53,521 nt of DNA, taken from positions 1 to 53,521 of IMG/VR virus record IMGVR_UViG_3300020281_000034. One strand, given 5' to 3'. How positions within the stretch are numbered: the first letter of the stretch is position 1; each line of letters begins with the position of its first letter. Both the position numbers and the translations under genes were made by a program. This stretch comes from a virus. Under the pieces are notes generated by a model. It was not told the DNA's origin, ran no database searches, and saw nothing but the letters and a program-made list of their open reading frames with translations. Positions 13,595 to 16,986 of the stretch are shown here, piece by piece.

Positions 13595-13625
13595 TATTTA
13601 TATCATTTACACAATTGAATGTCAA
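13595..13625 (-). promoter_or_regulatory. overlapping sigma70-like and late promoter of gp32
   Basis: TTGACA (13620-13625), a 17-nt spacer ending TGA, then TATAAATA (13595-13602). Its first six bases serve as the -10 and all eight match the T4 late element. The same DNA can thus be used early and late. The leader is about 65 nt. Confidence 0.75.
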
Positions 13626-15712: not shown

Positions 15713-15946
15713 TTAAATAGGTAATGTTGCAACTCTTGGTAAAAAGTTTAATTCCCTTGCATCTGCCTCTAACTTCTCTTTCAGAGGTTTAGAAATTAAT
15801 GGAGCGACAGTATCTGGCTCCATATTATTCTTTTCGCAATAATCTAGAATAGCATCCATATAAGTTACACCACCACATTTGACTATTTCTTCAATCTGTA
15901 GTGCAAATTTCTTTGGTGTCATTTTCACGACTTCTTCTAGATTCAT
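15713..15946 (-). CDS. 33: late promoter recognition protein gp33
   Basis: 77 residues from the ATG at 15946 (AAGGAG 8 nt upstream; a longer frame to 16000 lacks this). FALQIEEIVKCGGVTYMDAILDYCEKNNMEPDTVAPLI-SKPLKEKLEADARELNFLP matches T4 gp33 (FIIEKMVEEFGMSYLEATTAFLEENSI... then LLRP). gp33 bridges RNA polymerase, gp55 and the sliding clamp at late promoters. This agrees with the many TATAAATA elements in the window. gp55 is not in the window. Confidence 0.85.
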   Translation of the reverse strand: MNLEEVVKMTPKKFALQIEEIVKCGGVTYMDAILDYCEKNNMEPDTVAPLISKPLKEKLEADARELNFLPRVATLPI

Positions 15947-16000
15947 TACAAAAACTCCTTTGTTATGTTGAAATGGAGTTAACCATGACTCCACACGCAC

Positions 16001-16204
16001 TTATTAAGTAGTGACCCTTATTATTTTGTGTTGGTGGGACTTGGGTACACCCACAACTGAAGAACCAAGATACCATTCTTGCGTAATCTCCAGAACCTAG
16101 TTCCAATCGGTGAGATTGATGTGACACAGCGTGCTTCCACTACCATGCCTGGATACCACTCCTAACTAGTCAAGTTCATATCTCTTGGTGAGATACTCTT
16201 CCTT
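16001..16204 (-). ncRNA. structured non-coding region downstream of tmRNA
   Basis: There is no convincing gene, and base composition is visibly more GC-rich than its surroundings. At least four hairpins can be drawn: TATCTC/GAGATA (16179-16184 with 16190-16195), AATCTC/GAGATT (16085-16090 with 16112-16117) enclosing GAAC/GTTC, CAAGA/TCTTG (16066-16081) and GTGGG/CCCAC (16034-16038 with 16050-16054). It could be the 3' part of the tmRNA coding piece, a second small RNA processed from the same transcript, or a leader of gp33. I searched it for tRNA arms and found none that fit. Confidence 0.5.
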
Positions 16205-16602
16205 GCACAACACGATTTTGGCCGTCGCCAAACTATGAAACTGGTAGTGGTGTTTCTGTTTCCAAGTACACCACTAAAACTCAGTACGATTAAGCAGCTA
16301 GTGCATAATCTACAGGCGCAAAATTATCGTTTGCACTTATTTGTTTTGACCGATAACGAGGTCATGCGACAGTTCTACTCTCATATCCATTTGTTAGTCG
16401 ATCCTATTTCGCCCCCACAAAGACATACTAGCCGATTCTACCTCACAATCAGATGATGTTAACCCTTGTGTACACAGAGGTATGGTTACATATTACAGTT
16501 GGGCTCCCAAGTTCATATGTCATCATCTAGTATGTCTATGGTGGAGGCGATGGGTACTGCCCCCATGTCCTACCCAAATATCAATTCGTATCAACAAACT
16601 GT
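16205..16602 (-). ncRNA. ssrA: circularly permuted two-piece tmRNA
   Basis: Read on the minus strand, the acceptor piece comes first. T-arm ATGGG-GGCAGTA-CCCAT (16566-16550), then CGCCTCC (16549-16543), then ACCA ending at 16539. The coding piece starts at 16416 with GGGGGCG (16416-16410), which pairs over all 7 positions (one G-U) with the acceptor strand, followed by a D-loop-like GGATCGAC. The tag frame starts at GCA (16334) and encodes ANDNFAPVDYALAA, stop TAA at 16292-16290. AACTGT (16374-16369) pairs with ACAGTT (16602-16597), joining the two pieces. A pseudoknot follows the tag: TAGTGGTGT/ACACCACTA (16276-16245) with GAAAC/GTTTC. The spacer between pieces has an 11-bp perfect helix (16421-16431 with 16527-16537). 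The 3' end of the coding piece is approximate. tmRNA rescues stalled ribosomes and tags their products for proteolysis. Confidence 0.92.
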
Positions 16603-16606
16603 ACCT

Positions 16607-16637
16607 TATTTATATCATATAAAATTTTATAAGTCAA
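16607..16637 (-). promoter_or_regulatory. overlapping sigma70-like and late promoter of the tmRNA
   Basis: TTGACT (16632-16637), a 17-nt spacer ending TGA, then TATAAATA (16607-16614), the same composite layout as at gp32. Start of transcription near 16601 would coincide with the 5' end of the acceptor piece needed for the ACAGTT/AACTGT helix. The -35 overlaps the end of the upstream secreted-protein gene. Confidence 0.75.
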
Positions 16638-16986
16638 TACCTTTTTTATTTAAATCTGTATTCATATTGATTCTTCCCTTACCAGATCCTAATACACACG
16701 CAAACTTATTGTCTTTAGTAAACTCTAAAAGAGTCCAAGTAAGTGTTTTTGTATTCATGGCCAGAACAAATCTAGTATTAAGAAATATACCCTCTACTGC
16801 CATAGAACGTCCATCCATCCAAATAAAAGGATCTTCACCAGATGATTTTAGACTTTCTATAACAACATCTGCATTACCACATTGAGCTGGTTTCATTACC
16901 CAACCAGTATTAGGACTTTTTGTCTGTGCGTTTATACTAAAGGTACTGAGCAACAGAAATGTTGTTATCAGAAATATTTTTTTCAT
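16627..16986 (-). CDS. secreted protein of unknown function
   Basis: 119 residues with a signal peptide (MKKIFLITTFLLLSTFSINA, cleavage near AQT). The mature domain is small, with two Cys (AQCGNADVV and KFACVLGSGKGRIN) and WMDGRSMAVEGIFLNTRFVLAMN. It is predicted to be periplasmic. It overlaps the end of the nuclease gene by 50 nt. Related small secreted proteins occur in marine phage and bacterial genomes, but I know no function. Confidence 0.6.
   Translation of the reverse strand: MKKIFLITTFLLLSTFSINAQTKSPNTGWVMKPAQCGNADVVIESLKSSGEDPFIWMDGRSMAVEGIFLNTRFVLAMNTKTLTWTLLEFTKDNKFACVLGSGKGRINMNTDLNKKGIDL

Follow-up and report, generated by a model that had tools for sequence, protein, structure and literature searches.

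Permuted tmRNAs are already known in marine phages. The OM43 phage Melnitz was reported in 2022 to encode a two-piece circularly permuted tmRNA, with a locus that runs from a PD-(D/E)XK nuclease gene through a small ORF and ssrA to a gene for a late-transcription coactivator (PMC9004378). In that study, two-piece forms accounted for 53 of 133 phage tmRNA structures, 50 of the 53 being marine or aquatic, and the Melnitz tmRNA grouped with alphaproteobacterial tmRNAs (PMC9004378). A 2025 survey comprises 79 bacteriophage tmRNA sequences and is the source of the permuted-form model used here (PMC11915505). The record of the Pelagibacter phage Mosig also carries an annotated permuted tmRNA, and with ARAGORN we found others in DSS3_MAL1, RcSimone-Hastad, and vB_EliS-L02 (a set including roseobacter and rhodobacter phages) and in HTVC008M, where the gene, with tag ANFNEYALAA, is unannotated in the published record (2117-2458 of our locus L543, which covers HTVC008M 143004-147284). 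Phage tmRNAs are thus known as annotations, and we found no demonstration in the literature of their benefit to the phage.

The tmRNA described below, which lies in a 53,521-nt stretch of viral DNA (the window), is not new in kind, since phage permuted tmRNAs have been published since 2022. A sequence-only reading of the window had recognized a phage-encoded, circularly permuted tmRNA of the two-piece type, which ARAGORN, Rfam, and the individual parts bear out, but it had known of no phage case clearly described as permuted, a claim overturned by Melnitz, where the gene occupies the same locus (PMC9004378), and by the Mosig annotation. What is new are three leads around the gene, namely a hybrid promoter, a manA RNA, and an unlisted two-hairpin element.

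A permuted tmRNA gene upstream of a late-transcription coactivator

The window comes from a T4-like marine phage, as can be seen from its genes for gp32 single-strand binding protein, primase, and tail and baseplate proteins (PHROGs), and for a gp33-like coactivator, gp59 helicase loader, PhoH, ThyX, RNase H, and a T4 baseplate protein (Pfam). Its closest cultured relatives by gp32 identity are Melnitz (76%) and the SAR11 phages Mosig and HTVC008M (about 60-61%). In this phage, ssrA sits directly upstream of the gene for the late-transcription coactivator, which is 74.7% identical to that of Melnitz and whose ATG at 15946 is preceded by AAAGGAG. ARAGORN calls a single RNA gene in the window. 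It is a minus-strand permuted tmRNA (16199-16631) whose tag reads ANDNFAPVDYALAA. Two Rfam 15 families match at full length on the same strand, RF01849 (alpha_tmRNA) at 16243-16641 with 116.7 bits against a cut-off of 50 (E 3.1e-31) and RF04321 (tmRNA_permuted) at 16290-16602 with 105.9 bits against 47 (E 1e-19), both scores clearing the threshold by a wide margin. The features are as follows.

16539-16602, minus strand: acceptor piece, the 3' half of the tRNA-like domain (5' end approximate; sequence, ARAGORN, Rfam)
16566-16550, minus strand: T-arm, ATGGG-GGCAGTA-CCCAT (sequence reading)
16549-16543, minus strand: acceptor 3' strand, CGCCTCC, followed by A-CCA ending at 16539
16417-16538, minus strand: intervening segment, 122 nt, predicted to be removed on maturation
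16537-16527 with 16431-16421, minus strand: joining helix of 11 bp, AGACATACTAG/CTAGTATGTCT (sequence, covariation, fold)
16243-16416, minus strand: coding piece (3' end approximate; sequence, ARAGORN, Rfam)
16410-16416, minus strand: acceptor 5' strand, GGGGGCG, starting the coding piece at 16416
16404-16397, minus strand: D-loop-like GGATCGAC (sequence reading)
16334-16290, minus strand: tag frame, ANDNFAPVDYALAA and stop, with resume codon GCA at 16334 and TAA at 16292-16290
16245-16276, minus strand: post-tag hairpin of 9 bp, TAGTGGTGT/ACACCACTA, with loop ACTTGGAAACAGAA (sequence reading)
15713-15946, minus strand: T4 gp33-like late-transcription coactivator gene, downstream of the tmRNA (Pfam PF16805, 81.9 bits)

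The CCA end at 16539, the GGGGGCG at 16416, the tag at 16334-16290, and the 11-bp helix sit where the sequence-only reading had put them, and the ends that it gave (16602, 16539, and 16416) match the covariance models. The acceptor and T-arm segment comes first, followed by the intervening and then the coding segment, and the tag frame has its resume codon, its stop, and a hydrophobic AA end. In the acceptor stem, position 3 is a G-U pair (G3-U70 by sequence reading), which is the identity mark for alanine; discriminator A and CCA are present as well.

Pairing of the joining helix among phages goes far beyond chance. Across 53 distinct phage arm pairs, 96.4% of positions are paired; combining arms from different phages lowers this to 67.6% (SD 1.6%). 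Most phage loci share one register, in which the helix starts 0-1 nt past the CCA and ends 4 or 5 nt short of the coding piece. For the precursor hairpin of the window, the fold is 4.0 SD better than that of dinucleotide-shuffled sequences. Since the shuffle test over the post-tag hairpins of all viral loci is weak (20% at p<=0.05), we judged this hairpin, likely a pseudoknot, by matching changes among relatives, which occur in the stem around a conserved loop in L353 and L361. These observations confirm a real, intact phage-encoded permuted tmRNA gene, of two-piece type and alphaproteobacterial kind, which is probably functional.

Nine loci reached through gp59 have a whole or largely readable tmRNA in the same place; it is intact in L124, L126, L127, L129, L130, and L134 and, more distantly, in L131-L133, while the tmRNA loci of L125 and L128 run off their contigs. 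Starting from the coactivator, we found about two dozen tmRNA-gp33 pairs, and the D-arm region was matched in at least 120 viral contigs. No tmRNA lies upstream of gp33 in L348.

Viral tags are mostly 13-14 aa long, and 85 of 87 end in AA. Their last five residues are [YF]A[LI]AA in 63%; the tag of the window ends in ALAA, and tag changes among relatives are conservative (DYALAA, DFAIAA). An unusually long 29-aa tag, ANDNALSNVTFVDFSAPVTAVNEDFALAA, is found in three other viral permuted tmRNAs (L076, L089, and L118). As for bacterial hosts, SAR11-order tags have 9 aa (ANESYALAA, for example) and 40% end in [YF]A[LI]AA, while a biased alphaproteobacterial sample from outside that order has 12-aa tags with 2% so ending. 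The pattern ANDN...D[YF]A[LIM]AA occurs in 1 of 385 alphaproteobacterial genomes, as the only tmRNA of that genome. Redirection of tagging to a different tag, which the sequence-only reading also offered, keeps some probability: the tag has the usual AA end, but its 14-aa form is matched in that one genome of the 385. Assigning the phage to a host by tmRNA similarity and by tag was tried and rejected: no host tmRNA was close enough to that of the window, and the matches to the tag pattern, which came from SAR116, Rhizobiales, and further alphaproteobacteria, had tags of 12 aa and do not fit. Hosts have a permuted tmRNA of their own, which is present in 176 of 197 genomes of the order called SAR11 here, an order reached by genome sampling and labeled Pelagibacterales-like from its genomes of ~1.2 Mb, low GC, and tags. 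The intervening segment has a median of ~86 nt in phages vs. ~31 nt or less in the sampled hosts.

The hybrid promoter and the slot before gp33

Both ends of the tmRNA gene are flanked by further elements, and one of them recurs elsewhere in the window.

16607-16637, minus strand: hybrid promoter TTGACT-N17-TATAAATA, a sigma-70 -35 element joined to a T4 late box, upstream of the tmRNA
13595-13625, minus strand: second hybrid promoter, TTGAC-N17-TATAAATA, upstream of the gene for gp32 single-strand binding protein
16024-16232, minus strand: manA RNA (RF01745) in the gp33 leader, 64.1 bits against a cut-off of 55.2, E 4.4e-14

Two copies of TTGAC-N17-TATAAATA stand in the window, one ahead of the tmRNA and the other ahead of gp32, where 0.03 are expected; TATAAATA by itself is not enriched (11 vs. 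9.2 expected). At 85 distinct viral permuted tmRNA loci, the box is present in 66 (shuffles, 1.75), with TTGAY 16-19 nt upstream of it in 55 (shuffles, 0.05), and the distance from its end to the CCA end has a median of 68 nt, staying within 65-74 nt in all but one. Column counts at these loci also bring out an A-tract, TTGACA, and a TG ahead of the box. At host loci, the box occurs in 0 of 113 alphaproteobacterial and 2 of 52 SAR11-order cases, both at unrelated distances, so that the hybrid promoter is absent and no box stands at the phage position in any of these 165 loci, the 113 having been picked by tag pattern rather than at random and the 52 being mostly high-scoring members of their order. 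Conserved in phages and missing from host copies, this promoter shows that the phage has brought the tmRNA gene under its own programme of expression.

In RB49 and S-PM2, early promoters that overlap with late ones have been described (PMC2984593). For Melnitz, only an early promoter was named and an early-only action was proposed (PMC9004378), yet we find the hybrid promoter at the Melnitz tmRNA as well. Because this promoter joins sigma-70 elements to a T4 late box, tmRNAs that carry it would be made both early and late, a prediction that contradicts the early-only idea. Such expression would not be universal, since the Mosig tmRNA lacks the hybrid promoter.

The manA RNA, a riboswitch candidate of cyanophages and marine DNA (PMC2864571) for which we found no ligand in the literature, forms a clean block of ~219 bp between the tmRNA and the coactivator gene in the window and in L124, the only two among the close relatives to have it here. 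In seven close relatives, the block is missing and the end of the tmRNA abuts the gp33 leader. We rejected an assembly artefact, since the same arrangement is found on a second contig (that of L124, 101 kb), which probably belongs to the same virus population. In Melnitz and six further loci, the slot holds a glutamine riboswitch. With the slot empty in relatives, filled by manA in the window and L124, and filled by the glutamine riboswitch in those seven, leader RNAs appear to have been exchanged in front of the late-transcription coactivator. The glutamine riboswitch comes directly after the tmRNA in L001, L072, L347, L351, L356, L357, and L358, and its presence there in several phages extends the Melnitz report. 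Mosig also has a manA RNA (L002 3974-4181), which is 73.6% identical over the matched stretch and sits before a rubrerythrin gene.

An unlisted two-hairpin element

Between the manA RNA and the coactivator gene lies a third element.

15972-16018, minus strand: two-hairpin element of 47 nt, a 4-bp stem with loop ACTTAATA and a 6-bp stem with loop CATGGTTA (covariation)

It follows the pattern AGGGT-N4-[CA]CTTAATA-N4-CGTG and then a second hairpin with a loop near CAYGGTTA. There is no Rfam family for it, and a search at E<=10 returned junk only. A scan in which the first arms were left free gave at least 120 matches, and those listed represent 87 distinct contexts, 84 of which have fully complementary first arms. 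Among the same listed matches, the 20 distinct pairs of first arms are 91% paired vs. 54% when swapped, and the 28 distinct pairs of second arms 98.6% vs. 61.9%. In an alignment of 17 sequences, all 10 bp change on both sides, and 98.8% of cells are paired vs. 69.0% when shuffled and 30-55% in slid registers. The loops barely vary.

Of 20 long viral records, 14 contain a single copy according to a model of the element (R1). The model also found it in most tmRNA-gp33 loci, but not in ~50 gp33 loci without tmRNA, nor in Mosig, HTVC008M, P-SSM2, S-PM2, or S-SCSM1. Copies include L001 6517-6562, L130 4680-4726, and more than 80 further contexts, some of them after gp32 or tRNA genes or between genes for S21 and Hsp20. 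The phage with the last arrangement also encodes IF3 and ClpS; in viral locus L485 (686-3728), IF3, S21, the two-hairpin element, Hsp20, ClpS, and an IMP-dehydrogenase-like protein follow in a row. Covariation alone cannot separate RNA from single-stranded DNA, and we take the element to be RNA because T-runs (after the element in 16 of the 87 contexts among the matches listed) and leader positions favor this. Our best guess at its function is an element at the end of a transcript or in a leader, with a phage or host protein as its binding partner. We lean, if only slightly, toward a broader proposal, in which the element represents an undescribed class of structured RNA in marine phages, usually with one copy per genome, beside tmRNA/gp33, tRNA, gp32, or translation and proteolysis genes, and in which the element and the dual early/late promoter would jointly tie the tmRNA and late-transcription control into a single phage-specific regulatory unit. 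The copy beside the tmRNA lends itself to structure probing and to the search for a ligand or protein partner.

Proposed role and comparison with known systems

We consider it likely that the intact phage tmRNA is made early and late and supplements host trans-translation by freeing stalled ribosomes, a role that the sequence-only reading had put forward and that the features above leave plausible. Transcription would start from the sigma-70/T4-late-box promoter in both phases of infection, early and late, and would probably continue into the late-transcription coactivator gene. In the precursor, the 11-bp helix would bring the acceptor and coding segments together, and host tRNA-processing enzymes, by analogy with Caulobacter-type tmRNA, would cut out the 122-nt intervening segment, so that two RNAs remain. 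With its G3-U70 pair and CCA, the mature RNA is predicted to be charged with alanine, and it presumably binds host SmpB, since a search of the L124 and L130 contigs, Melnitz, and Mosig turned up no SmpB. Ribosomes stalled on broken messages would then be rescued and a degradable tag ending in ALAA added, the likeliest benefit being that ribosomes are kept free and truncated proteins cleared while messages are degraded in infection.

The tmRNA could instead serve mainly to redirect tagging, marking host or nascent proteins early so that amino acids are recycled, as was proposed for Melnitz (PMC9004378). The near absence of the 14-aa tag form from alphaproteobacterial genomes, the 9-aa tags of the SAR11 order, and the full sigma-70 features of the promoter speak for this, but the xALAA/AIAA degron at the end of the tag is ordinary and resembles that of SAR11 tags, and the late box in the same promoter of most such phages, Melnitz included, argues against early-only action; we regard it as unlikely. 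A decoy role, in which the phage RNA would keep SmpB or alanyl-tRNA synthetase from host tmRNA by competition, has a precedent in the tag-less form of mycobacteriophage DS6A, which inhibits endogenous tmRNA (PMC11915505). The complete tag frame, resume codon, and stop kept here would be needless for a decoy, which makes this reading very improbable. We give still less credence to a host-derived passenger or relic devoid of present function: although related phages such as L348 lack the gene, and tmRNA was found in 17 of 47 clustered contigs (PMC9004378), every close relative has kept it intact, the joining helix showing paired changes and the tag conservative ones, and a phage-type promoter is conserved at a fixed distance. 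Supplemented ribosome rescue thus remains our preferred reading.

Of the known systems, the ssrA of Melnitz EXVC044M resembles the window in its permuted order, in its slot (nuclease, small ORF, ssrA, late-transcription coactivator, and helicase loader), in its closely similar tag ANDNYVPVDYALAA, in its hybrid promoter, and in the two-hairpin element downstream, but the stretch separating tmRNA from coactivator holds a glutamine riboswitch in Melnitz and a manA RNA in the window. The SAR11 myophages Mosig EXVC030M and HTVC008M likewise have a permuted tmRNA at most a few hundred nucleotides upstream of a gp33-like gene, but their tags are short (GEDNFALAA and ANFNEYALAA), Mosig has no hybrid promoter, and neither genome has the two-hairpin element according to model R1. 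The alphaproteobacterial permuted tmRNA (RF01849, Caulobacter type) shares with the phage gene the domain order, acceptor stem, D and T arms, resume region, and post-tag hairpin, whereas the phage gene is distinguished by its longer intervening segment, a tag of other length and ending, and a phage-type promoter.
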